Both the position numbers and the translations under genes were made by a program. From NCBI RefSeq assembly GCF_037975245.1, contig NC_092581.1, forward strand, positions 16,369,303 through 16,433,302: a stretch of 64,000 bases of DNA, in the 5' to 3' direction. This document shows, piece by piece, positions 28,631 to 57,307 of this stretch. The stretch is from Apostichopus japonicus (Eukaryota; Echinodermata; Holothuroidea; Aspidochirotida; Stichopodidae). The first letter of the stretch is position 1; every line of letters starts with the position of its first letter. The notes under the pieces are model-generated. The model made no database searches. It worked only from the letters and a program-made list of their open reading frames with translations, and was not told the DNA's origin.

Positions 28631-28960
28631 AAACACATACATACATACATACATACATGTCAAGCGCCAATGAACGTTGACCAAACGTTGGAATTGTTGT
28701 ACGGTTTACAGCTTGAAGAGTTGGTCCTTTGCCCCGATTTTGATGATCTGTACACACAGGAGGCCACCCGTCCGCAGCATGCCGAGGGGGCCACCCGTCC
28801 AGAGGGTGCCGAGGAACGCCGCAGCGTGCTGAGGCACGCAGGGGGCCACCGGTCTGCAGCGTGCCGAGGCCATGGCAACGTGATGAGGCGCGCAGGGGGC
28901 CACCTGTCCGCAGCCTGCCGAGGCCATCGCAGCGTGCTGAGGCACGCAGGGGCCACGAAG
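28631..28960. repeat. (ACAT)n plus GC-rich minisatellite
   Basis: (ACAT)n at about 28633-28658 is followed by imperfect units built from CAGCGTGCTGAGGCACGCAG and GGGGCCACC. The region is open in several frames on both strands only because it is a repeat of high GC. The protein-like readings (Arg/His/Ala-rich) have no start context or splice signals. Confidence 0.8.
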
Positions 28961-30892: not shown

Positions 30893-31290
30893 GCTCAGCT
30901 AATTTAAGCCATGCATAATGTAAAATAACTGTAATAGTTAACGGTTTTATATTAAAGATTAGGCCTACCTGCCCATAGAAACATGAAAGATGATTTAGAA
31001 TTTTGATTTCACAAAGTAACCAAATATGCAAAGGTTCTCAGAGGTCACAGATTTGACAACACCCAGCACACACCCAAGTATGAAATTAATACTCCATACA
31101 GTACGTCAGTAGTTGCGTAGGCCTGTCATTTGTAATATTGCACATAACAGAACACAGGATGTTACAAGCTTTGGCACAGTCATAATTTTCTAAAATCATT
31201 GTAATAAATTAATGTATCTAGAGTGGAAAAGCTGTTGTCATTTCCTCAAGCATTTAATTGATATGTTTGTATCTTCACAGAAAATACAAC

Positions 31291-32872
31291 ATGTCCAGCA
31301 CAGCTGGAAAAAGTGACGGTGAGCTGTTAACAGAAATTCCAGATGAGCTTAAGAAATTGGCCAAATATGTGATGCGTGGCTTTTATCCCGTTGAACATGT
31401 ACTCATTGTGGATCTTCTTGTTAGAAATGTGATTATGAAAGATGATGACTTAGCAGAATTATTAAAGTTTGATAAGAAACAACTCAGGATTATGCTGAAT
31501 AAACTTAAGAATGATAAGTTGCTAAAGTCGACTTTACGAGTCGAAACCCAAGCCGACGGTAAAACAAATAGGCACAACTACTATTTTATAAACTACAAAG
31601 TATTTGTCAATGTGGTCAAGTACAAATTGGACAAAATGAGACAGAAGATTGAAAGTAGGGAAAGAGAATCGACAAGTAAGGCATTATACAGGTGTGTTAA
31701 CTGTGATAAACAGTACAACGAGTATGATACAGGCGATCTCATGGACTTTATGACAGGAGAAATGAAGTGTACACTTTGTGGCGCAGAGGTGGAAGAGGAT
31801 GAGACCGCAGCTCCTGAGAAAGATACGTACATGCAAATAGCTCTCTTTAATGAACAGATGCGACCACTCTTTGATTTATTGAAAGAGGTTGAGCACATCA
31901 AGTTATCACCAGAAGTCCTTGAACCAACTCCTGTTATTGTCAGTGATGCTGTCAGGTATGTGTGAAATTTCAATGAATGACAAAATTGTCAGAACTGCAA
32001 TTTTATACTGTAATGTTACTGTAATAGTTACTGTCATGTTACGATGACCAACATTTCATATATACTTATGTTGGAATCGTATCTGTGGTCAATTATCACT
32101 GACTTTTGTCTAAAAATAGTGTCATTTCCCTTAAAGCATCAATCATAGATGAGAGCTTAAAAAAAAAATTGCAATAGGACTTTGTATGGCAGTTCTGCAG
32201 AGATTGAGTTTCTGGTGATGATAAATATATTTGCCACACGTATTTGATTTGTGCTTTGTTACTTTCTCCATTTGCAGGGCCAAACAAGCTGGCTCACAGA
32301 GAGGAATGGCTGGTTGGAGTGGCAGTAATAGACCCAATTATGATCTCTACAACCATGAAGTCACAATCAACATGGGCGGTGAAAATAAGGACTCCCAAGA
32401 GAACAAGGAGGTCAAGGAGAGACCACGGTGGATGGTGGAGAGTACAGTAGATGGCGCAGTAACCGAAAAGGAAACCACCGTAGGATCTATGGAGTCTAAA
32501 CAGACGGCCGGAGCAAACTCCAAGAGTCAGAAACAGGACCAAGGGGAAATAATGAGGGCGTTGCTCGTTCACGAAAGGAAATCTGGAGGGAAGCCTAACA
32601 TAGTGGCTGCTGCTCTCAGTGAGAACGAAAGCGACGAGAGTGCTTCGGATGACGATTTCCCTAATAGTTCGTCAGTGACAAAACGAGACGAGAGGATGGA
32701 AATGGACGAGGTCGATGATGAGGAAGAGGAAGAGGAGGTGATGGTGTCAGTAAGAGGACAAATGCTTCCCTTCAGTGAAGTAACAGAACATTATGTGGCT
32801 GAAATGACGCCAGAGGAGAAAGACATTTACATTAAGTTAGCCCAGGAGGCATATGCAGCTATGCATGATTGA
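31291..32872 (+). CDS. GTF2E1: Transcription initiation factor IIE, alpha subunit
   Basis: TFIIE-alpha pairs with TFIIE-beta in the RNA polymerase II pre-initiation complex in the nucleus, recruits TFIIH and stimulates promoter opening. There are two coding exons, 31291-31955 and 32278-32872, joined in phase 2, giving 419 residues (human 439). The start is the ATG at 31291, ten bases after the acceptor ending at 31280. Residues 12-125 form the winged-helix region ([38 protein letters not shown]), all close to human. A zinc ribbon has C135-x2-C138 and C160-x2-C163. The C-terminal part has [22 protein letters not shown], an acidic tract ([11 protein letters not shown]) and the final [12 protein letters not shown] helix, again in human order. 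The protein looks intact. An AT microsatellite begins about 23 bp after the stop, so the 3' UTR runs into it. Confidence 0.97.
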
Positions 32873-33312: not shown

Positions 33313-33383
33313 GCGTCCATAGCCTAGTGGTTAGGGTGTCTGCGTACAGAGCGGGAGGCCCGGGTTCGAATCCCGGTGGAGGC
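33313..33383 (+). other. tRNA-like sequence (left arm of inverted repeat)
   Basis: The 71 bases show a tRNA pattern: box A (TAGCCTAGTGGTTAGGG), box B (GGGTTCGAATCCC), an acceptor stem with one mismatch, a T arm with perfect pairing and a 7-base anticodon loop after U33. A T7 run, like a Pol III terminator, follows at about 33390. The anticodon loop would read ACA, and the stem is built partly of G-T pairs, so a functional tRNA gene is doubtful. A pseudogene or SINE head is more likely. Confidence 0.5.
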
Positions 33384-33509
33384 AAGAAGTTTTTTTACTG
33401 TTCTTGATTTTCCAACTCATTACGATTTTCAATTATATACATATTTATATATACATATATATAAATATAAATATATAAATATATATATATATATTTTTAT
33501 ATTTATATA

Positions 33510-33556
<47 letters not shown>

Positions 33557-33562
33557 CTTCCA

Positions 33563-33633
33563 GCCTCCACCAGGATTCGAACCCAGGCCTCCTGCTTTAT
33601 ATGCGGACACCCTAACCACTAGGCTATGGATGC
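33563..33633 (-). other. tRNA-like sequence (right arm of inverted repeat)
   Basis: It is the mirror copy of 33313-33383, also 71 bases, with box A (TAGCCTAGTGGTTAGGG) and box B (GGGTTCGAATCC). The anticodon-loop triplet differs from the left copy (ATA), and the anticodon stem has a mismatch. It runs toward the centre of the inverted repeat and enters (AT)n. Confidence 0.5.
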
Positions 33634-33775
33634 TGATTGTAAGGAAGGTCGTAATTCCACTGTAGGCGTTTGTCACCAGCATCGAACAATACTAGTTCTG
33701 TTTGGTGACATATTTGCCTTACTCTAGAGATCAAAAATGATGCTAACCAACTTGAAATCTCGAAAGAGATACTTT

Positions 33776-38085: not shown

Positions 38086-41000
38086 ATGGCTCTCAGAGTA
38101 CCAAACGCACCTGGTTTTTCTTCAATGCTCAAAGAGGGAGCAAAGGTTTTAATATTCCCTTAATTATTCATCTAAACGTGTTACAAATCTTGTTATGTAG
38201 TTTTCAAAATTAGCTTATATTTTGCAGTCTGCTTAGCAATCAATACAATGATTACTAGGCCTAGCACGTGTGTGTTCACCAGTGACATCGCCCTTGTTGT
38301 GCACATAGGTTAACGTTAGGCCTAGCCTGGGCTAAAGCCGTTAGTCAACAGAACATTAGGTTAACAGTGTAGGTGGTACACTGAAGGGTTCAGTGCAGTC
38401 TTAACAAGTAACAGTAACACTAGTCAAAAGTAAGGCCGTATGAAAATAAAGGCTAACCACCTTTGCGAAAGGTCTCTGTAGAAATAATACAAAAGGCATA
38501 CAGCAAATTTAACATGCTTGAAACAAAGTTGGCTGGTGAAACGCTTCCATGAGATTTGGCATAGACCTGTTCTTGAGAAAGGGGTTCCAGTGCCATGCTG
38601 CCATAGGTACATACCTCCATACCATTCCACCATTGGTTTCGATCCTTGCCGAGAAAGGGTACTCTTAGTTTTAGTCTCCTAACTTAAATTTCTTACTTGT
38701 TTACTACATCTTGAACTTGTATAGTGACCTATCTAGCTGTGATAAAGCAACATTCTAACAAGTCTGTTTCGACTTCATTTTGTTAGCTGTAAATTGTTCT
38801 TTCAATTATCTAAAGGCTTCATAATTGACACACCTTCTAACATTACTAGCTCTGTGATACAGCAGGCAACCTAAACTTTGTGCAGTCAAGCAGTCAAACA
38901 TTTGATGAGTTTTATCCATTTCAGGTTTATGCTGATCAAATTGTGCTTTTCTTTAAGCTTAAAGTAAACATCCTCACCCCAGTTTTGTGCATTTTTTTGG
39001 CATTTGGAAATCTAACTCCCAAAAAATAACCAAAATTACCTCAGTATAATACCACTACTCTCTGGGACCTGACCTGTCAGCACTTAGAGGCTCAGAGCAT
39101 AGCAAACAGCATCCAAAGTCAATTGATGTATACTAAGGCCTATACTACAGTTAGCGTTTTGATGAATGTGTCAATTTAGGGGTATGAAAAAACTTGGCAA
39201 GGCAGACATTATGTGGTCAATTTCTGCTCAATTGTTCATTAGGTAGGCACAGAACAATAAATAGTTTGAGATCATTACATTTCTGAGGATCTACAAATAT
39301 GAAAAACAAATACAGTTGAGTGATCTCGAGTTTTCGTTGATAGACATCATTAATCAAATCCTTAAGTGCGTCAATTATGAGCCCACTATGCTACTTTTTG
39401 AAGTGCTATCTTCCATTAGTTTACCTACTTCATCTTTACACAACAAGATGTATTTGATGTTCACCAAAGATTATATCTTTTGAGTTAGTTTAGAGACCCA
39501 AGGATCAGGAAGACTTACAGTAGCTTATTTGAGACCCTATCTGTGTTAGATGCAAAGTAGTTGTTTTACTTTATTTTTTATCTGTTGTTTTGATTTTTTA
39601 TAGCACTTTCATGGCTTGGAAGAAGCAGTGTACAGAAATATTGGTGCCTGCAAGGAACTTGCTCAGACGACAAGGTCAGCCTATGGTCCCAATGGAATGA
39701 ACAAAATGGTTATCAACCACATTGATAAGCTCTTTGTAACAAATGATGCAGCAACAATCTTGAAAGAACTTGAGGTATTGTATTTATCATAAAGTCTAAA
39801 AAGAGACCTATTGCTATTGGATCCTTTACTCTTTAAGTACTTTACCTAGAAACAAAACATATGATTATGAATGTAATAAAGCAAAACATTACCATCACAG
39901 TGCTTTACAAGTTTTGTTTCCTTTTGAAGGCAGAAGGAATCTATGCAATATTGATGGCATGTGTGTGCCAGAAGTTTAGTTTATTTTTTAATTCAAAACC
40001 CTTGTTACATGATATCCCAAGGGAATTTGGGATGGACCTCCAAGTGTTGGGAACTACTACCCAGTCGAAGCTATTAATACCATGTCAAGAAGTAACGTTG
40101 TTACTTTTCTTTAGAAACACTGCAATGTGTACTCTTCTGTAATTTCATCATTTGGTGATATTCCCTATTGTCTTGATGAGTTTATGTGTAAAATGTGAAA
40201 ATTTGTTACTACTCATGCTCACGAAAGTTTTGATCAACTGTGTTTGTTTGCTGTGACTTGTGTACAGTGTACTTTAAAGCCTGAGTAATCTCTCTGCAGT
40301 GCTTACTTGTACGCCAGTCAATTTAATTTTACGCCTAGATATCACAAAATTTTGCTCTTGCTTAAAATGAGAAAGTGGGAAATGTGGCCAAGGTCATTTC
40401 AGTTCAAAGAAGAGCTCATTAAGCTCAAAATCTTTGAAAGTGTTATGCTTCCAAAGATGAGGTATGGAAGTTACTGACAGGCCTCCATACTTTGTAAGAG
40501 GACAATGTTGAGACAAGCAACAATAAAATTAGGTTGTTATCTGTTACACACAGAAAACTTGTCTTCCATTATGCATGACCATTATAGATGGTAAAAGTCA
40601 ATTAAAATGCATCATCACAAATGTTCAAGTCAGTGGAACTCAATATTTTTTTCATGTCAGTGAAACAATAATTTATGTAGGGCTTATAAGAATGATATCT
40701 CTAGAAGATAAAGATTGGGTTAGGGCTAACCCTAACACCTATCTTATTACTGGTCCTCAAAGCCACAATGCACTTCTGTTTATTTTTAAATATTTCTTTT
40801 GCAGGTTCAACATCCTGCAGCTAAAATGCTAGTCCTAGCAACACAGCAGATGGAGCAAGAGGTCGGTGATGGAACAAACTTTGTTATGGTCTTTGCTGGT
40901 GCTCTCTTGGAATATGCCGAGGATTTGCTGAGAATGGTATGAACAAAATAATTCTATGAGAAATTTCCAGAAGCCATCGTTTTCTCTCAAAATATTTTAA

Positions 41001-44000
41001 GTTTGGCACAGTTATGTTCTCACTGAATTAAATATATGCATACTCAGATTGCAATCAAATTAAGTGACTTGCATTGTTTGCAGATAAGGTATGACAACTA
41101 TTTGGAACAAAGCTGTATATCTCAATTGTGTCTTTCTTTGATCAAAATGTTTTTCATTTTAAAATGCTTTTTGTTGTAAAATTCTAGGTGTATTGTTGAG
41201 AAAGTATTTGCTACATCTTGTTAGCTGTGCACCATTTAAAGTCTTCTATTTCATAACACTAATCCTATGCCCATCAGCACTATGGCTAATATGTCTGCTA
41301 CTAGGAGAAATGGATGTAGTGCTTGTGTGACCTACAGTATGACATCATTAGTCAAAGGTCAAATCATTAAAATCAGCAGTTTGGGTTTCATGCTCATACC
41401 AAAATGACAGGATGGCTGAAACCATCCAAGCCCATGTTGGATATCAGACTGCAAGTTTATAGCTCATTAAAAATGCATGTTAAATGCAGGTCAGCATGTG
41501 CAAACTACTCTTTAGTTACAAGGCATATTAACTTTAAACTTGGGTATGTGCCTGGGACATCACTCATTGTTGTGAACATGAGATCAGTAAAATTCAATTG
41601 ATAGTCAAGCAGTTATTTTACGATGCTTAAGCGACCACAAATGTGGGGCAGAAGCCTGCAAGGTTTTATGGATTACAAGTTTCATGTTGGGTGGCTTCCA
41701 ATTCAACAAGATGAGACCTGCCATAGCTTGCCTACTTACTAGTAATTTAACTTAACTTGTAGTATCTGTTTTCTTATTGCAAATTCAGGGTTTGTCTCCA
41801 ACAGAAGTTATTGAAGGCTACGAGATTGCTTTGAAGAAAGCACTTGAAATTCTTCCAGGTAATGAGACCAAGTTTATTGTTTCTTTCTCTAGACACAATG
41901 TAGACTTACTATAACAATTACATGTGATCTCGTAAAATATTGTTTATAGTTTTCATTAGTGAACACAACAGACGGTGATGTCAAGGAAGTCTATTATCTG
42001 TTTAAGGCCTATTCCAATGGCTGAATTAGACCTGCTTTTAAATAAATAAGTTGGGAATTTCCAGCAATTTTTTTGGACAAGACCACATCCGAGTAGCATT
42101 TTGTATGGTGAAAATTGAAACTTCAGATTTGGTGATGTTTTTTTGGCATCTGTAAACATCAGTGTGAATGATTTCATCATAGCACTTCAGATGCAAAGTT
42201 TTTTCTTTTTTTTTTCATTTTTTCTATGTTTTACTCACTTATTCACAGATGAGAATAATATTAGTACTACAAAAATGTTTTGATGAAATTCTAAGTACAG
42301 AGAACATTGACAGCTAGACGAACGTTCCAAATGTATCATACTTCAAGAATAAATCAATATCAGGACAATTATAACAGGAAATTAGAGCAACTGAAGAACA
42401 CTGCCAATTATGACATCACTGAACATCTTCTGTCATCCACTCCCAGAAGAATCATGGGTTTAGCCAGTAAAAAAATATGTTGCATTCACTCAACCATATA
42501 TTAGTAAGCAGCAAGATATTAGGATAGAACATTTTGAAATATATTTGTCTTTAAGATCAGTGTTACATTGCCTCCCACTGGAATATCCCTTTTATCATAA
42601 ATTCGTAGGGTCTTCAAAACTTTCATCATAGAGGTATCTACTCTAGTTAAGTTTATATGAATATGGTAGAAATTGCAAACTTATCTGGTAGGTGGTTCTT
42701 GAAAATAGTTATCTGGTAGGTGGTTCTTTATCATAACATAAATTCTAAGGTGTTCAAAACTTTCATCATAGAGGTATCTACTCCAGTTAAGTTCATATGA
42801 ATATGGATATGGTACAAATTGCAACTTATCTGGTAGGTGGTTTTTGAAAATCCCTTTCAAGAAGTGATATTTTTCTGATTTCTCTGTCCTTCTTCTTTCA
42901 GAGATATCCTGCGGATCCTTAAAGGATTTATGTGATGCCAGCGAAGTGACAAGCGCAATCCGTACAGCAATCATGAGCAAACAGTATGGAAATGAAGATT
43001 TCCTTGCAAAGCTTGTAGCACAGGCCTGTAGTAAGTACATATGCGCACCTTTATGGAGTAATCACAACCCCAAACATTCAGTGTGGAGGGGACAATACCC
43101 TCTTGAAAGACGGTGCTTCATTTTGTAAAAAAGACTGTGTAGGCATATCGTTGTATGGAAGGTGTGATGTTTGCATGTTTATAATTGCTACATGTATTAC
43201 CATATGCTTGTTTCAGTATAATACTGCTGTGTTCCAAAAGGAGACAAAAGATTTTTTTTTAATAGAATTTGAGATTTTTATGATAAAGCTGTATTTTGCA
43301 TCAAGCAGAGGAAGAAGCCAGAAGCCATGTAGGATTGACCTGAACAGATGTATCTGATCAAACCTATTCAACTTCTTTATAATTAACCAAATTACAACTG
43401 TTGTTTTTACCTTCAAGGGGGTCAACATCATGGCATTAATGCACCTTTGAGGTTTGATTTATTTACCCTTTTATAAGATATTGCAATCATCTAACCATCT
43501 CAATTTTTCTCTTCTTTCGCAGTTTCAGTCTACACCAAATCAAAAACTTTCAATGTGGATAATGTGAGAGTTGCCAAAATCTTGGTGAGTCACCACACAC
43601 TTCTCTTGGGTGAAAGTGATGATTGTTTTACTTTTCTAAGACGCTTGATAAAAAGTTTCTTTCTTCCCTGCATTTGTCGCAGAGACATCGGTTCTATAAT
43701 ATGACAATTAAAACGGGACAAATTAAGTCAAGGCTTTAATATCCTGCCTTTCACGATATGAGTAATAGATTTTGTCTGAATTTAACAATTGTTAAAGAGA
43801 ATGTCTGATGAGTCTGTGACTCTATTGATATACATTAGGAGTTTATTGCAATGTATTGGATGCAATCTGTCAATCACAGCAGTTCAAATTTACTTTTTTC
43901 ATTGCCTGGATATTACACAATTATTTTCATTTCTGCACATATGTGGAGTTTTTGAATGTGGAAAATGGGGGGCGAGGGCTTGTCTTTTTCAAAGCAAAGC

Positions 44001-47000
44001 TAACCCAAAGATTTTGAAAATGTTTCTTGTCCAAGTTTTGTGACAAGCAGCAGTATGTCAATATGGTTCTATTATGTTACACACAGAGACAACAGGGTTC
44101 ATGGTTTCTGAAAGTTGATAGTTTACACAAGTCACTTTGCAAAAGTCAATCGAGCTGCAACATCGTTGATGTTCTGTTTAATTTTATTCCCCCCCCCCCC
44201 AACCCTACCACTTCACTTTTGGGGAAGGGCCTTAAGGTGTATATTTCTTGTTTGATAGCTATCATTCCCTTTCGTTTCTCATTTCTGTTTTTGCTTGCAT
44301 TGAGGATGCTCATGATGTGTTATTTTTACAGGGTTCCGGTGTCCTCAGTTCATCTGTAGTACAAGGTATGGTCTTTAAGAAGACCATAGATGGTGATGTA
44401 ACGAAGATAGAAAAAGGCAAGATTGCTGTCTACTCATGTCCAGTAGATTCCTCTAGCACAGAAACTAAGGTAAGGACTCTTCTTTTACCAGAGCTGAAAG
44501 CAGGACCAATAAACTGGCTGGCTGTGCTTTCAATGTTCTGCCTAACACAGGCATGAAGATAATACAATGTTAGCTCCTTGTAAAATGTCACACCAGGTGG
44601 CCTAGCCAATGTCAGTTTACTTTGATAGAATATTGTGCAAAACTGGGAGATGGAAGAAAGCGAGCAGTGTAAATGTGATTATGTAGTATTTGGATCCCAA
44701 ATAGTGGATACTTAATGCAATACTCACAAGAATACATTCTATTTTGCAATAAAGGGTGCCCTTAGGTTAGGTAACACTTCAATTCCAAATACTACATATT
44801 TCATGCAATGTAGAGTGCCCTTTGGTAAGGTTACACTTCCATCCCAAATACTACATATTGAGTGCAAAAAAAGGTGCCCTTTGGTAAGGTAACACTTCCA
44901 ATCCCAAATACTGCATATTACATGCAATGGAGGGTGCCCTTTGGTAAGATAACACTTCAGTACAAAATACTACATATTTAATGCAGTAAAGGGTGCCCTC
45001 ATGTAAGGGACAACACTTCAATCCCAATTACTACATGTTGAATGCAATAATGGGTGCCTTATGTAAGGGAACACTTCAATCCCAAATACTACATATTTCA
45101 TGCAGTAAAGGGTTCCCTCATGTGAGGGAACAACACTTCAATCCCAAATACTACATATTGAATGCAATAAAGGGTATCTTATGTAAGGGAACACTTCAAT
45201 CCCAATTACTACATACTATGGATGCCTTTAGATAATGAGAGACAAACAGGTGAGTCGCAGTTATTGTAGCATAGCTGATGAAGAGTATTTCCATTAACAC
45301 TGTGAAGGCTGATCTGATAATGCCATTTATGATACAAGTTTAATCAGGTTCAATTTCTATCTCTCTCTCTCTGTTTTGTCTTGCAGGGTACTGTTTTGAT
45401 AAAGAATGCAAAAGAGTTGTTAAACTATAGCAAAGAAGAAGAGAATGTGCTTGAAACAGTAAGTAGAACGGTTTATCTTATATGTTTGTTTACAAGTACA
45501 TCTTACCAGCTGATGCCTCATAATAGTGATGGATTCCTGCTACATTTGAGTGCAATCTGTATGTAAAACACCAAAGGTCACAGAAATGTTGACTATTGAA
45601 TCCTAATTCAGTCCTCTCCCACCCTGAAAAGAGTCACAGTCAAGCAAAAGACTTACTTAGTTCAGAGGCTCATTGTGACTCAAGGTATGTAGCAAAGGAA
45701 GAGGCTGCGACTGTCAGATAACCATCCCATTCTGGAACTTTGGCAGGTGGAGAGAGTTTGTGACATATTCTAAAGTGATTACTACCAGTTACCTTTAATG
45801 TATATGTCGATGAAGCTTAACCTAACTATAGACATGTCGTCCATGTTACAAATTTGAATCCTTTTTGTCACGGTGATGCTGTGACGTGATAAACAGGGCT
45901 CTCACACCTTTGGCTTTCATTTTTATCTTTTCACAGCAAATTAGGGTGATAGCTGAAACTGGTGTGAAGGTTGTCGTAGCTGGAGGTAAAATCGGAGATA
46001 TGGCCCTCCATTTCCTGAACAAGTATAACCTGATGGCAGTGAGACTAACATCAAAGTGGGATTTGAGGAGAGTGGCCCGCTTGATCAGAGCTACCGTACT
46101 TCCCAGACTTGTGAGTAAAGTTCATAATATCCAAAAGTTTAGATATAAGGTTTGAGAGGCTATAAGTTAATGGCGATGTGGCTGACATCAAAGTGGGATT
46201 TGAGGAGAGTGGCCCGCTTGATCAGAGCTACCGTACTTCCCAGAAATTTTTAATGATGTATGTATGAAGGGATATATGTGGTTTTGAAATGGTATATTTG
46301 CATACGGTAATTAATTGTTTTGTAGAGGACTCACAGTCATACCTATAAAAGAGGGTGTCTTGAAAGAGTAAAGCACATGCTTGTCTTGCATATTACGTTG
46401 GTGTGGTTGGATGATGATCACTCCGGTAGTAAACGTTGTCTTGTTCCCCGTCTCTTAGACCCCACCCACAGAACAGGAAGCCGGTTTCTGCGATCAGGTA
46501 TTCGTCTCAGAGGTTGGTGACACTCCAGTTGTAATATTTCAACAAGGTAAGATGAATACAACTTTGGTCGTGGTATACTCTGTCTTATAGTAAAGTCCAG
46601 ACCACAGTCATCTACCCAATTGGGTAGATGATTGTGATGGTTTATTCAAAGGTGTGAATATATTACAAGTTCGTCACTGAAATTTACTTAGTCTACTCCT
46701 TACGTTAAGTTATGTATTGAATGTTGTTGTATTCTTGCCAATACTATTGCCAATGGCTATACAGGTGTTTGTGAGACGTGCATACAGTATACTCAATCAA
46801 GGCTCATAAAAATTACGTGGCACTGACTAAAGAACTCAGTAAATTTGATATTGAAACAAGGAAACAATAAAGGAGAGATTCTATGGAAAGTACTACAAAC
46901 ATATTTTTCTAATCACTTTTATGCTCAGAAGTTCGAAATATGAGATCAACATAAGTTGTAAGTCTGAGAAGTCTGTATACAAAAACCCTTATGCAATTGG

Positions 47001-50000
47001 TGGAAGTCGAAAGTGTGGAAACCTTGAACACAAAAAGAGTGGAACATAAAATTTGGATGAACTTCACACATGGTATGTAGATCCACCTAAGTGAGTGCAA
47101 GATCCCTGCCGGTTTCTGTAGAGGTCAAAGGTCCTTTGTGGTTAAACAGAGGCCAAAGTCTCAAAAATGTTGTAAAACATGATAACTTTAAGAGTAAAGC
47201 TTGGAACTTTATACTGCGGAAGTGGATTTACACTACGTAGTACAAGGAACATGTTTATACAGGTGCATGAGACTATCATGAGGTGTTCTATGATTGTCTT
47301 TGTTAGATGCTGATGAGAATGCAGTCTCCACAGTGGTGATCAGAGGATCAACGGAGAACATAATGGATGATGTGGAGAGGGCTGTAGATGATGGAGTGAA
47401 TACATTCAAGAGCCTTACAAAGGTATCATAAAAGAGATTAAATAAATCTAGGTATAAGGAATAGGTTTTTGTAAATAACTTTACTTGATGATGTAGAGAG
47501 GGCTGTAGATGATGGAGTGAACACATTCAAGAGCCTTACAAAGGTATCATAAAAGAGATTAAATAAATCTAGGTATAAGTAATAGGTGTTTGTAAATAAC
47601 TTTAATGGATGATGTAGAGAGGGCTGTAGATGATGGAGTGAACACATTCAAGAGCCTTACAAAGGTATCATTAAAGAGATGAAATAAATCTAGGTATAAG
47701 GAATAGGTTTTTGTAAATAACTTTAATGGATGATGTAGAGAGGGCTGTAGATGATGGAGTGAACACATTCAAGAGCCTTACAAAGGTATCATAAAAGATA
47801 TTAAATAAATCTAGGTATGAGGAATAGGTGTTTGTAAATAACTTTACTTGATGATGTAGAGAGGGCTGTAGATGATGGAGTGAACACATTCAAGAGCCTT
47901 ACAAAGGTATCATAAACGAGATTAAGTAAATCTAGGTATAAGGAATAGGTGTTTGTAAATAACTTTACTTGATGATGTAGAGAGGGCTGTAGATGATGGA
48001 GTGAACACATTCAAGAGCCTTACAAAGGTATCATAAAAGAGATGAAATAAATCTAGGTTTAAGGAATAGGTGTTTGTAAATAACTTTAATGGATGATGTA
48101 GAGAGGGCTGTAGATGATGGAGTGAACACATTCAAGAGCCTTACAAAGGTATCATAAAAGAGATTAAATAAATCTAGGTATGAGGAATAGGTGTTTGTAA
48201 ATAACTTCAATTTATGATATACACATTCAAGGCCCTTAGGTATCATAAAAGAGATTAAGTAAATGTAAGTAGCAGGAATAGGTGTTTCAAATAACTTTAA
48301 TTTATCATATACACATTCAAGGCCCTTACAAAGGTATCATAAAAGAGTTTTAAGTAAATGTAGGTAAAAGTAATTGGTCCAATTCAAAGTGATTCAAATA
48401 AAGTTTATTTATGATACGATTGAAGCAAATCGAGCAAAAATATATAAAAAATTCTTTTCATTTCATCATAACAGGATAAACGGTTTCTACCTGGTGCCGG
48501 TGCTACAGAGATAGAACTAGCGAAGCAACTGGCTTCTTACGGTGAAACCATTCCAGGCTTGGCTCAATATGCTATCAAGCAGTATGCTCAGGCATTTGAA
48601 GCTCTTCCTAGAGCATTGGCAGAAAATGCAGGAGTCAAATCAACAGAGGTCCTATCCAAGTTGTACGCTGCTCATCAAAGTGGCAACTCTAAAATTGGCT
48701 TTGATATTGAGGTATGTTTCAATCAGCTACTCATAAAGTCGACTTTGATATAGAGGTATGTTGTTTCAGTCGGCAACTCTAAAGTTGGCTTCGATGTTGA
48801 GGTATGTTTTTTCAGTTGGCAACTCTAAAGTTGGCTTCGATGTTGAGGTATGTTGTTTCAGTCAGCAACTCTAAAGTTGACTTTGATATAGAGGTATGTT
48901 GTTTCAGTCGGCAACTCTAAAGTTGGCTTCGATGTTGAGGTATGTTGTTTCAGTTGGCAACTCTAAAGTTGGCTTCGATGTTGAGGTATGTTGTTTCAGT
49001 CAGCAACTCTAAAGTTGGCTTTAATATTGAGGTATGTTGTTTCAGTCGGCAACTCTAAAGTTGGCTTCGATGTTGAGGTATGTTGTTTCAGTTGGCAACT
49101 CTAAAGTTGGCTTCGATGTTGAGGTATGTTGTTTCAGTCAGCAACTCTAAAGTTGGCTTTAATATTGAGGTATGTTGTTTCAGTCGGCAATTCTAAAATT
49201 GGCTTTGATGTTGATGTATGTTTCAATCCCCATGCTAAAGTCCGCTTTGATATTGAGGATATGTTTCAATCGTATCACTATATGAGCCCTTCCCTATGTA
49301 AGACATAGAATCGGAGAGAGATTTTAATTTATGCAGGAGCATGTAAAGTGACTCTGTGTCCAAGTGTGTCAGTCGAGTCTCTCCATGATCTCTAAAATAA
49401 AACAAATGTTCGAAGCAAAAAAAAGCAACCATAATTTAAACATTTTCTTCATTTCAAAGTGATGTAAAATCTGCTAGCAATGATTATAATTAGTATCAAT
49501 TCTATCAGCTGGCCACTTTGTTTATTGTATATATTGTATATTGTATCATATATCTAGATTGAGTAACAAAGCATTTCACTCCACTAGTGGTCAAAATACA
49601 AAGAAGAGTTTTCTACAATACATGCATGCCACTAATAAGGATCCATCAATAACACATGTGATTCATACGATAAATGCTAAAACATGAAGCATTACACTGA
49701 ATAAAGTAATGTTTTGTAGAAGAAATATTAACGTATCAAAAGCAAAATCTGTTTTGACTACCACTATAGTGCTCTTCAGCAAAAATGGAAACTCGTATGT
49801 AAGTTTTGGCAGTTACCTTAAATAGGCCTATCCTTATGTTATACTGCTTTTATGTAGCAATAAAGCCTACCCCTGTCTGTAAAACTGCCTTGTGGGCAAA
49901 ATACTTGAACCTCAGAGACCAAGAAATGGCAATATTAAAACTTTATTTGCATAACAAGAAGGTTTTCATCCTCTTGTGTCATTCACTGGTTTCTTTGGCT

Positions 50001-51544
50001 CCAAACTTTCAACATTGCCATTGCAACTCTATATCTCATTAATTAGTTTACATATGTGTTCAATTGACTGTTGATGCAGTTAATGTGAAAGAAGTATGAC
50101 AAACACCATAAGAAAGTATTCTGACATGTTTATTGTAAAGAGCCTGTTAAATTAATAGCCCAGGATAGCCATTGTAAACACCAGAATAGCCCACAAGAAA
50201 ACACATAGTTGGTCAAAAAGAACCCACAATGTCTAAAAGACATTGACACTTGCAAAACAAATATGTATTAATAGCACTAACAATCCTTGTTGTGTACAGT
50301 TATACATGACAGAGAACTCAGAATAGCAAAAAGCTGTAACATACATTATGAACATTTCCTAGATTTTAAATCTGGAAGACTACAGCAGAAAGTCTGTTAC
50401 TTTTTTGTTCATGCCAAGTTCTTGGAATTTATCCAAAGATGTGAAATATGTTGAACTGCTTAGTTTCAATATGAATTGTAACTGGGTGCAAGTAAAGCCA
50501 TTGTTATAAAATGCTTACGTGATTTCTCATTTAGTTCATAATTATTTATTTGAATATCTGACCAAGTTTCCTCTTACTCACAAATCAGGCTGAAGGTGCT
50601 GATGTCAAAGATGTGGTTGAAGCTAACATTACAGATGCTTACCTGACCAAGTTCTGGGCAATTAAACTGGCTACCAATGCTGCAATCACTGTACTTAGGG
50701 TTGATCAGGTAGGAGCCTACACAGCAACCTTCATGTCACATCATATGTGACTCATTCTGTTTTCATTGCGGGCTGAGAGAGGGCATTTTGGGGGAGCGGG
50801 GCATCAGTTGGGGAGTGGGGGATTAGATGGGGTGTGAGGCACCAGTTAGGGTGTGGGGCATCAGTTGGGAGTGGCATCAGTTGGGGGGTGGGGCATTAGT
50901 TGGGGAGTGGGGGAATCAGTTGGGGATTAGGGGAATCAGTTGGGGATTAGTTGGGGTGTGAGGCATTAGTTGGGGAGTGGGGCATCAGTTGGGGAGTGGG
51001 GCATTAGTTGGGGAGTGGGGCATTAGTTGGGGAGTGGGGCATTAGTTGGGGAGTGGGGGAATCAGTTGGGGATTAGGGGAATCAGTTGGGGATTAGTTGG
51101 GGTGTGAGGCATTAGTTGTGGGGTGGGGCATCAGTTGGGTTTGGTACAGACAAGAAATCAAACCTCTTCTGACTTGACCAGAAAGATTCATTGAAACAAT
51201 TTGTTTAAACCTATGGTGATGTTGATTAATTAATGGAGTGTAGTTATATAACCCTGCCATTAACTGATTTGTATTGCCAGGTTTTTACAAATATTACTGA
51301 AGATTGATATGTTTCATAGTTGATTCTTATACATAACTGCAAATGGTACACAGATAGTTAGACACTTAATAAACTCACCAGTTCATAGTATTGTGTTACG
51401 TACAGTACAGTGAGTGTTAATGTTAATAGTGTATCGTTTGTTTACTTTACTTTATTTTATTCCCAACAGATTATTATGGCCAAACAAGCTGGAGGACCAA
51501 GAGTCCCTAAGCAAGGGGCAGGTAATGACCCTGATGATGACTAG
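38086..51544 (+). CDS. CCT8: T-complex protein 1 subunit theta (chaperonin TRiC/CCT), 14 coding exons
   Basis: CCT8 is one of eight subunits of the cytosolic TRiC/CCT ring, which uses ATP to fold actin, tubulin and other proteins. The coding exons are 38086-38145, 39604-39774, 40805-40936, 41789-41858, 42902-43030, 43523-43584, 44332-44469, 45387-45458, 45937-46110, 46459-46546, 47307-47422, 48475-48711, 50589-50708 and 51470-51544. All have GT-AG boundaries and compatible phases, giving 547 residues (human 548). Group II chaperonin signatures are TTRSAYGPNGMNKM (residues 42-55), EVGDGTN (96-102, catalytic Asp), SKWDLRR in the apical domain, GAGATEIELAKQL and WAIKLATNAA. GAGATE replaces the human GGGATE, a tolerated difference. 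The end, RVDQIIMAKQAGGP, is near-identical to human. The gene looks intact. Its introns are unusual: the 3' ends of exons 9, 11 and 12 are duplicated into the following introns. Confidence 0.98.
42590..42852. repeat. Imperfect tandem duplication in CCT8 intron 4
   Basis: A block of about 130 bp containing CAAAACTTTCATCATAGAGG, TATCTACTC(T/C)AGTTAAGTT, ATATGAATATGG and TTATCTGGTAGGTGGTT occurs twice, with a third partial copy of the last segment between them. It ends about 50 bp before the acceptor of exon 5. Confidence 0.85.
44690..45230. repeat. Minisatellite in CCT8 intron 7 (~60-bp unit, ~9 copies)
   Basis: The unit is about 60 bp, built from ACACTTCAATCCCAAATACT, ACATATT(G/T)AATGCAATAAAG and GGTGCCCTTTGGTAAGG with variants. 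The copies are well conserved. They read as short spurious proteins on both strands. Confidence 0.9.
46161..46244 (+). pseudogene. Duplicated fragment of CCT8 exon 9 in intron 9
   Basis: These 84 bp repeat 46024-46107 of exon 9 with few changes (from TATAA...ATGGC through CCGCTTGATCAGAGCTACCG to TTCCCAGA). The copy lies 137 bp downstream, after the real donor. It lacks the donor itself, since homology stops a few bases before it, and has no acceptor in front, so it is probably not spliced in. Confidence 0.9.
46600..46640. repeat. Palindrome in CCT8 intron 10
   Basis: There is a perfect 24-bp palindrome at 46608-46631 (half-site TCATCTACCCAA), extended by imperfect pairing to ACCACAG on the left and TTGTGATGGT on the right. 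It would form a hairpin in RNA or a cruciform in DNA. Confidence 0.85.
47367..48360 (+). repeat. Exon-11-derived tandem array, 121-bp unit (7 copies plus 2 decayed)
   Basis: The first unit is the last ~56 bases of real exon 11 (GATGATGTGGAGAGGGCTGT ... AGCCTTACAAAG) plus the first ~65 bases of intron 11. The donor junction AAG|GTATCA recurs at exactly 121-bp spacing (AAGGTATC starting at 47420, 47541, 47662, 47783, 47904, 48025 and 48146). Two further shortened copies follow to about 48360. Every copy keeps the donor, but none has an acceptor. The open frames on the opposite strand are mere shadows of the repeat. Confidence 0.95.
48680..49262 (+). repeat. Exon-12-derived tandem array, 46-bp unit (~12 copies)
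   Basis: The unit is the last ~30 bases of exon 12 (GGCAACTCTAAAATTGGC, then GA(T)(A/G)TTGAG) plus GTATGTTGTTTCAGT from the intron start. The GGTATG junction recurs at 48711, 48755 and then every 46 bp (48801 to 49169), and ends in decayed copies near 49215 and 49258. Each unit contains a donor-like GTATGT and a TTTCAG just before the next copy, so each copy is bounded by both kinds of splice-like signal, but the spacer is only 14 bases. Confidence 0.95.
49263..50588. other. Rest of CCT8 intron 12, no further feature seen
   Basis: This is unique-looking AT-rich intron sequence before the acceptor of exon 13 (AAATCAG). No repeat boundary or RNA gene was recognised. Confidence 0.5.
50775..51140. 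repeat. G-rich minisatellite in CCT8 intron 13
   Basis: It consists of short units based on GGGGCATCAGTTGGGGAGTG and GGGGCATTAGTTGGGGAGTG, irregularly arranged over about 365 bp. The sense strand has closely spaced GGGG runs, which could favour quadruplexes in the transcript or DNA. Confidence 0.9.
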
Positions 51545-55749: not shown

Positions 55750-56235
55750 TTAAATCTTGCAAATAAATCTAAATCCTGCCCCGTTATAACACTGCGTATC
55801 GTCCCATCCGAGCAGATTTCCTGGTCTTGCTGATAAGAATACACAATTTCCGGTTTCCCAAGTTGGATAACCTTTTCTGTAAGAGATGAAATCCACTGGT
55901 GTATTGTCAGTCCACTTGGGGTTTAGGGGGTCCCCATCGTCAACGTGAAGTCCTGTCCAGACGTTTTTTTCTCCCCATTTATCATGTATTTCATTGATCA
56001 GAAATTCTTGTTCCAATATACTATGGATTGAAACTAAATGACTTTCACCACAGTTATCTCTGGACTGGTCTTGACAAATGGTCTCAGCTTCGTGGAATTC
56101 TCGAGCCCAAGAAACGAGTAAATAACAGTGGCCGTTGAAATGCTTCCAACCAGGAGGACAGTGTCTCTGAAGACATGACGTGACACGTGACGTCAATATC
56201 AGTAGAAGAAATGTCGCCTCTTGGAGCCACTGCAT
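55750..56235 (-). CDS. Secreted C-type lectin domain protein, single exon
   Basis: This is a 161-residue protein with a signal peptide (hydrophobic FLLLILT at 9-15, cleavage probably near 20-23) followed by one C-type lectin domain. It has the long-form first disulfide pair (C26, C37), C54, C131, C149 and C159, with an extra pair candidate at C21 and C62. Family landmarks are GWKHFNGHCYLL, HLVSIHS, WTGLHVDD, KWTDNTPVDF, GNCVFLS, GWDDTQC and a final FICKI. The usual sugar-specifying EPN or QPD triplet before the WND site is replaced by YPT (123-125), while WDD (144-146) keeps acidic calcium-site residues, so sugar specificity cannot be assigned. Such proteins are typically secreted, immune or matrix lectins in echinoderms. 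No intron interrupts the domain, but the ATG follows an acceptor-like TTTTAG, so a 5' UTR exon is possible. It is flanked by inverted copies of one transposon family. Confidence 0.93.
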   Translation of the reverse strand: MQWLQEATFLLLILTSRVTSCLQRHCPPGWKHFNGHCYLLVSWAREFHEAETICQDQSRDNCGESHLVSIHSILEQEFLINEIHDKWGEKNVWTGLHVDDGDPLNPKWTDNTPVDFISYRKGYPTWETGNCVFLSARPGNLLGWDDTQCYNGAGFRFICKI

Positions 56236-57307
56236 TCTAAAATGTGTATGAACGTATTTACATCAATTCGAAGAAATAAATTGGCGCAAAGTTGGGAAAT
56301 GAGCGATGTGGTAAAAGCTGCAACAAAGTCTACTGTTGTTATCTTCGTTTCATCTTCTTGGTAATAACTCAGTTGCAATTTACTATGTCTAGCTACTAGG
56401 CCTCTGCATTTGTTCTCTTCAAACGTTCAAAAAACCCAAGGAATTTGTCGAAAGATGAAGGCTTACTGGATGAAAACTGGGCTTAAAATCTTGGATTCAA
56501 CATCGCTTCTTTAACGTTCGTTTCGTGTGCAAATGTCGCTCTCGAATGCAGTAGCCTATTATAGACGAAAGATAACCCCATAGGAATAAACTGGTTTCCA
56601 AACCGGTAAATATATAAATATTTAAATAAATTTGTAGAAAACAATGTTTCCATTACACCAACGTAAAGTGTTATCGATTCAGGCGCGAACTAGTTCGTGT
56701 CTGTCTTAAATGGATGTTTTTGAAACTTTCTCTAGGCGTAAGACAAAGAAAGAGGCTGCAGCCACAGTAGGCATGCGCAGGTATCATATTAAAATGGATG
56801 CGTTGTATAAGAACGGTAAAATCTTTCTCAAAGATATAGTTACTGATGTACGTGCTCCATTTGATAGATTGATTGATTTCCCTTCAGTCAATAATTGCAA
56901 TGTGTCTTAATTAGAACGCAAATCAGAAATCGGTGTAGGTTGAATAGCAGTTAGCGATTGTTAGTCGAGTTGGTTGACAGAAACGATGGAAATCGATGTA
57001 ACATGATAAAAGTTCTGTGTATTCGAAGTTATTGTAAAATTGATATTATATGACTTAAGGAAAAACAAGCCAAACCATCGTCGTTGGCCTATATAGAGAA
57101 TTGTGATGAAATAATTCTCTCCAAACCGTTAAGAACAAAAAACCTTTTACAATTTGAGAGATAGACCTGTTACCATTTCCTCACACCCTGAAGTCGATGA
57201 TTTTGGAGCTTGAGGCTCCAAAAGCAGCTCCTTTTGGGGGAGGGGAGGGGGCGGGGGTACTGAGACAAAGGGCTATTATCTATCTAGTCATCCTATGACA
57301 TTGTGCT

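Follow-up and report, generated by a model that had tools for sequence, protein, structure and literature searches.

We found that the 3' ends of exons 11 and 12 of the CCT8 gene of Apostichopus japonicus, each together with its 5' splice site, are repeated in tandem in the intron that follows, leaving a row of decoy donors behind each true one. Judged by their anatomy in the assembled DNA, these arrays add a further case to a known kind of structure, the mirage, in which tandem repeats run across exon/intron boundaries. The reading that we favor, and to which we assign a probability of about 80%, is that they are mirage-type minisatellites whose unit spans the exon/intron boundary and which are tolerated, with the first donor being the one used.

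The CCT8 gene and its surroundings

The window, by which we mean the whole stretch of 64,000 nucleotides that was analyzed, contains an intact gene for CCT8 (TCP-1 theta), with 14 exons whose spliced model reads in one frame through 547 amino acids with zero internal stops. Its coding region lies on the plus strand at 38086..51544, as placed by the one-frame spliced translation and the match to the PDB, and its exons, all on the plus strand, are found at 38086-38145, 39604-39774, 40805-40936, 41789-41858, and 42902-43030 (exons 1-5); at 43523-43584, 44332-44469, 45387-45458, 45937-46110, and 46459-46546 (exons 6-10); and at 47307-47422, 48475-48711, 50589-50708, and 51470-51544 (exons 11-14). 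The top PDB match is 6qb8_q, a TCP-1 subunit theta chain (E 1.4e-260, residues 1-546), which, together with the place of the affected exon in the 14-exon model, bears out a preliminary description of this DNA that had named the gene as CCT8 and the exon as its eleventh. The exon 1 donor has a low score (-0.1, position matrix), and its position was set from protein continuity alone. Exon 11 (47307..47422, 116 nt) has its true donor, AAG/GTATCA (the slash marks the junction), after 47422 and is joined to exon 12 at 48475; exon 12 (48475..48711, 237 nt) has its true donor, GAG/GTATGT, after 48711.

Just upstream of CCT8 and on the same strand is a TFIIE alpha gene at 31258-32869 (Pfam PF02002 and PF11521), and a C-type lectin domain lies on the minus strand at 55753-56262 (PF00059, E 9.5e-08). 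A 54-bp repeat of 3.2 copies at 28785-28956 lies in a stretch with long open frames on both strands. At 33313-33634, an AT-rich tract is flanked by oppositely oriented matches that are tRNA-Cys-like and tRNA-Tyr-like and are probably tRNA-derived repeats. The mitochondrial genome is represented in this assembly by contig C35 (16,099 bases), whose Pfam fits score higher under the echinoderm code (table 9) than under the invertebrate code (table 5), with 504 vs 473 bits for cox1, 279 vs 266 for the first cob domain, and 230 vs 219 for the main nad5 domain. On this contig, nad4L lies between cox1 and cox2, as in echinoderms. The genes nad1 and nad2, which were identified by visual inspection of the translated sequence, are on the cox1 strand, which is presumably not the sea-star order.

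The exon 11 array

TRF detected an array at 47361-48218 with a period of 121 bp, 7.1 copies, 95% matches, and 0% indels, and the extent of the blast matches assigns 62 nt of the exon end and 59 nt of the start of intron 11 to the unit. On the plus strand, unit 0, which is the true exon end at 47361-47481, is followed by six full decoy units with junctions after 47543, 47664, 47785, 47906, 48027, and 48148. Beyond these lie two degraded and shortened end units (48208..48390, plus strand), with junctions after 48239 (TAG/GTATCA) and 48333 (AAG/GTATCA). There are eight decoy donors in total, six of them in strict 121-bp register, and seven of the eight are identical to the true site from -3 to +6. 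The sequence AAGGTATCA starts at plus-strand positions 47420, 47541, 47662, 47783, 47904, 48025, and 48146, with six intervals of exactly 121, and again at 48331; in the whole window and on both strands it has 10 matches against 0.88 expected, a count that was reached in 0 of 100 shuffles. Across the assembly (671.6 Mb in 35 contigs), an exact 27-mer spanning the exon 11 junction occurs 4 times, always inside the exon 11 array, and the unit is therefore local.

TRF and the blast extent together confirm the central claim of the preliminary description, that the 3' end of exon 11 had been amplified with its donor in a 121-bp array, while its counts needed revision. Seven AAG/GTATCA junctions at 121-bp spacing had been reported and are indeed present, but they comprise the true donor and six decoys. 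Seven decoys had been claimed where there are eight, two of them in the degraded units, although seven do match the true site in -3..+6. The division of the unit into about 56 exon and 65 intron bases gave way to the 62 and 59 of the blast extent; 56 nt is the exon part counted from the first base beyond which all exon 11 decoys agree.

The inner units of the array are homogeneous, and the two outermost are shortened and diverged. Two fixed positions separate unit 0 from every one of the six full decoys, offset 13 (G vs A) and offset 40 (T vs C); both differences are synonymous, and the six decoys still spell DDVERAVDDGVNTFKSLTK. Since the C at offset 40 is also carried by both outer units, the change at this position probably took place in the true exon. 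One of the fixed differences turns GTGGAGAGG into GTAGAGAGG in 6/6 full decoys, with GGAGA being lost and TAGAG gained. We take GGAGA to be an SRSF1-like word and UAG to be an hnRNP-A1-like word, and on the strength of these motifs the change could weaken an enhancer in the decoys.

Among the six full decoys, none of the 56 sites in the exon part (offset 6 on) is variable, compared with 9 of 59 in the intron part (Fisher p 0.003), a test that omits the variable offsets 2 and 4, gives p 0.027 when offsets 0-5 are included, and counts sites that are not fully independent, some variants being common to several units. This invariance is a modest signal. It is absent from the exon 12 array described below, where 6/30 exon sites and 2/16 intron sites are variable among nine full decoys (Fisher p 0.69), and since that array has no such contrast, we treat the exon 11 invariance as a lead and not as a finding. 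The exon 11 decoys also share variants (offsets 78, 95, and 106 and offsets 2/4) in patterns at odds with a simple tree, and this conflicting sharing fits what unequal exchange or conversion gives.

Copies of the ends of exons 12 and 9

The exon 11 array had been presented as a single oddity. Instead, a blastn search of the window (E up to 1e-3) with the 14 exons, each extended by 60 nt on either side, revealed two further duplications of this kind within CCT8, making three in all. Copies of exon ends were found on 3 of 13 donor sides, those of exons 9, 11, and 12, and on 0 of 13 acceptor sides, and it is always the 3' end of the exon that is copied and placed in the following intron.

The exon 12 array (48682..49222, plus strand, TRF) consists of 11.8 copies of a 46-bp unit that combines the 3' exon end and the donor. 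It supplies 11 decoy donors on the plus strand, after positions 48755 to 49215, of which 10 are identical to the true GAG/GTATGT in -3..+6. The array has a higher order of three units (138 bp), in that similarity is 98.6% between units three apart, compared with 92.4% one apart and 91.3% two apart. We ruled out this 138-bp order as a sign of coding sequence, since all three frames of the array contain stops.

At exon 9, the event is a single copy. The 3' end of the exon (46024..46107, plus strand) recurs 137 bp further on in intron 9 (46161..46244, plus strand), where 84 nt match it at 90% identity. All eight differences fall within the first 24 nt of the copy, and its last 60 nt reproduce the exon exactly. 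The match ends 3 nt before the exon end, leaving the copy without a donor.

When six repeat structures of CCT8 were placed at random, only 0.3% of 200,000 trials gave three or more whose first unit held an exon end and donor, and the share was again 0.3% when two short TRF rows were added. This figure serves as a guide only, the set having been assembled after the data were seen. None of the three other coding stretches in the window (two of TFIIE alpha and one of the C-type lectin) has a second copy there.

Two other minisatellites lie within CCT8 introns: a 59-bp array in intron 7 (44745-45215), with GTAAG-like words in many units, and a G-rich one in intron 13 (50791-51139), with 19-bp units and a 146-bp higher order. 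The intron 7 array was ruled out as a fourth exon-end array, since blastn of exon 7 with 60 nt on either side returned no copy. We also ruled out an R-loop origin as a general cause of the duplications, since plus-strand GC skew is 0.48 (G-rich) in the exon 11 array compared with 0.06 at the exon 9 end and -0.04 at the exon 12 end.

Choice of donor

Reading on past the true exon 11 donor meets an in-frame TAA at 47429-47431, as the preliminary description had anticipated in arguing that the first donor is required for a normal protein. Its expectation of a premature stop from a later donor was also upheld, with all eight exon 11 decoys leading to a stop after residue 406 of 547. The 11 exon 12 decoys all lead to one after residue 496 of 547, so that every one of the 19 decoys, whichever array it belongs to, introduces a premature stop, the outcome that unproductive splicing (NMD) calls for in an alternative site.

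Scored with a position matrix, the true exon 11 donor is weak (3.93, third lowest of 13), and that of exon 12, which at 8.74 ranks third from the top, is strong. As far as the letters go, the core sequence cannot distinguish the true donor from the decoys, most of which are identical to it. Concealment of the decoys by RNA structure was not supported, since the predicted accessibility of true and decoy donors overlaps at three window sizes: the true exon 11 donor ranked second, third, and fourth of 9, with the decoy at 47906 higher each time, and the true exon 12 donor ranked eighth, sixth, and sixth of 12. What is left to single out the true donor is its position, in that it is nearest its own acceptor, is transcribed first, and has the full exon before it. 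Exon definition would favor the donor that is paired with the acceptor of its own exon. On the other hand, in classical experiments in which duplicated 5' splice sites compete, the one closest to the downstream acceptor is often favored. Here that would be the last decoy, and this counts against a tolerated array in which the first donor is used. So does exon size, since exon 11 spliced from decoy 1 would measure 237 nt, the same length as exon 12, and size alone is therefore insufficient against decoy 1.

If the decoys are used to some extent, a share of CCT8 pre-mRNA would be spliced from them and degraded, and array copy number or splicing factors would set the output of the chaperonin. This fits the premature stop that follows each of the 8 exon 11 and 11 exon 12 decoys, the weakness of the true exon 11 donor, and the exchange of GGAGA for TAGAG in all six full decoys. 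Stops are, however, usual in most intron read-through, and the decoy core is neither stronger nor weaker than the true site; since seven of eight exon 11 decoys match the true site from -3 to +6, the core gives no mark of a regulated alternative. Predicted accessibility shows no preference for the true donor at either exon, and lancelet mirages are reported in the cited passages without disturbance of splicing (PMC3087553, PMC3902484), which by analogy would speak against a regulatory role for the CCT8 decoys. We consider this reading, under which decay would tune chaperonin levels as the preliminary description suggested, improbable.

Slightly less probable again is that the exon 11 decoys are under constraint, either frozen by exchange onto a true exon that is itself selected or acting as regulated competitors whose swap of GTGGAGAGG for GTAGAGAGG sets the rate of unproductive splicing. 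The invariance of the exon part (0/56 against 9/59) is unlike the prediction for a purely neutral array and in this respect counts against the mirage reading, at the modest strength given above.

The preliminary description had further stated that no acceptor lies between the exon 11 donors. This agrees with our finding of no AG above 2.8 within 47423-48474 under a profile built from CCT8's own 13 acceptors, but the exclusion is soft, the two weakest real acceptors scoring -2.1 and 1.8 when left out. In the exon 12 array, the AGs at 48866, 49004, and 49142 score 6.0, compared with a leave-one-out median of 5.8 for the 13 real acceptors, and by these scores unusual splicing within that array is possible. 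Acceptors so close to the real median would suit the emergence of a new exon or intron, with array units supplying the splice sites of a recruited exon, as has been proposed for lancelet globin genes. The inner exon 12 units also hold GTATGT and then TTTCAG within 14 nt, and eight acceptor-donor pairs would yield 78-nt two-unit cassettes that are open and in frame, for example ending in VGNSKVGFDVE like the true exon end. Yet the acceptors of these eight cassettes score from -1.5 to 4.3, with a single one above 0.9, and 28 AGs per kb of intron score at least as high as the weakest real acceptor. The cassettes are, moreover, copies of one another and not eight chances, and the AGs at 48866, 49004, and 49142 give no open in-frame cassette shorter than 200 nt. 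We regard the recruitment of a new exon as a long shot.

Least probable of all is that the assembler expanded a single exon end. Tandem arrays are error-prone, and one lancelet mirage was apparently misassembled in a draft genome (PMC3087553, supplement legend), but the six full decoys carry different variants, the outer units are degraded, the true unit differs from all six decoys at two sites, and 671.6 Mb in 35 contigs suggests long reads. The copy numbers given here are those of one assembly.

Discussion

Several of the features that mark mirages recur in CCT8. A unit that runs across an exon/intron boundary is present in the exon 11 and exon 12 arrays, though not in the exon 9 copy alone. 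Splice signals are retained in the units, with 7/8 exon 11 and 10/11 exon 12 decoys having the core of the true donor and the exon 9 copy having none, and the authentic exons and reading frame are intact, as the 547-amino-acid protein attests. In the exon 11 array, the inner copies are homogenized and the edges excluded, in that unit 0 and the two outer units differ.

We envisage that a tandem duplication across the boundary of exon 11 and intron 11 came first and that later units were added and homogenized by unequal exchange or slippage. Duplications on the donor side may be tolerated because they leave the exon body and the first donor untouched and their copies land in the intron. The first donor would be chosen mainly through its pairing, by exon definition, with the acceptor of exon 11, which lies 116 nt upstream, and through being the earliest transcribed. 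Mistakes at later donors would encounter TAA as the third codon and would probably be removed by nonsense-mediated decay, and such decay would hide the array from selection. In Drosophila, decay of mis-spliced mRNA has been proposed as a shelter for new introns (PMC2809761), and a shelter of this type could equally let arrays of decoy donors persist.

The term mirage comes to us from a paper on amphioxus globin genes, where, in the passages cited here, it denotes tandem repeats across exon/intron boundaries, with examples cited from the Adh3 genes of two Branchiostoma species and from further loci; splice signals are present in many, but not all, of the units, and regular splicing is undisturbed, as RT-PCR suggests (PMC3087553). 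Lancelet PGBD5 has since been added to the mirage cases, with troponin C quoted (PMC3902484). Like the Adh3 mirages of lancelets (Canestro et al. 2002, via PMC3087553), the CCT8 arrays lie over an exon/intron boundary beside an intact gene. The Adh3 units measure 10-72 bp, compared with 121, 46, and 137 bp in CCT8, and length and somatic instability have been reported for the Adh3 mirages, whereas CCT8 is known from one assembly. The mirages of the globin genes BflGb6 and BflGb9 have units of 150-160 bp (PMC3087553). BflGb9 duplicates a 3' exon boundary, as CCT8 does, and edge copies escape homogenization in both systems; the BflGb6 mirage uses the 5' part of an exon, whereas CCT8 shows three events in one gene, all at exon 3' ends (PMC3087553). 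In PGBD5, duplications of 60 and 108 bp overlap splice sites, as in CCT8, and were judged harmless to splicing, but the copies are few and imperfect, (PMC3902484), whereas in CCT8 as many as 12 donors follow one another, of which 11 share the core.

Outside animals, the potato RdRp gene shares with CCT8 a tandem duplication over an exon/intron boundary, but in potato a new intron is spliced (PMC4974935), whereas none is evident in CCT8, where the copies lie inside an existing intron. A link between intron gain and tandem duplication has been published (PMC4974935, PMC3087553). Two animal cases, in the passages cited, concern a minisatellite within an intron and a large duplication inside a gene and not boundary-spanning arrays (PMC6905558, PMC7605655). 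Among the matches listed in the literature, we found no boundary-spanning exon-end arrays outside lancelets. That the known cases found are all from lancelets, while the host here is an echinoderm, counts against the mirage reading.

What is unusual in CCT8 is the density, with three events in the nearby exons 9, 11, and 12 of one housekeeping gene, all at 3' ends, and also the host. The eight donors with the same nine-base core after exon 11 and the eleven after exon 12 amount to a natural experiment in 5' splice-site competition, in which the core is constant and the donors differ only in their position and in a few bases of the exon. Should the first donor be used almost always, exon definition and transcription order suffice to select it; if later donors are used, the array illustrates how a change in copy number could alter protein output. 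Three events in one gene bear on how frequently minisatellites arise from exon ends and on the origin of new introns by tandem duplication. Mirages, which we found described only in lancelets among the literature listed, would thereby be extended to another deuterostome phylum, the echinoderms.
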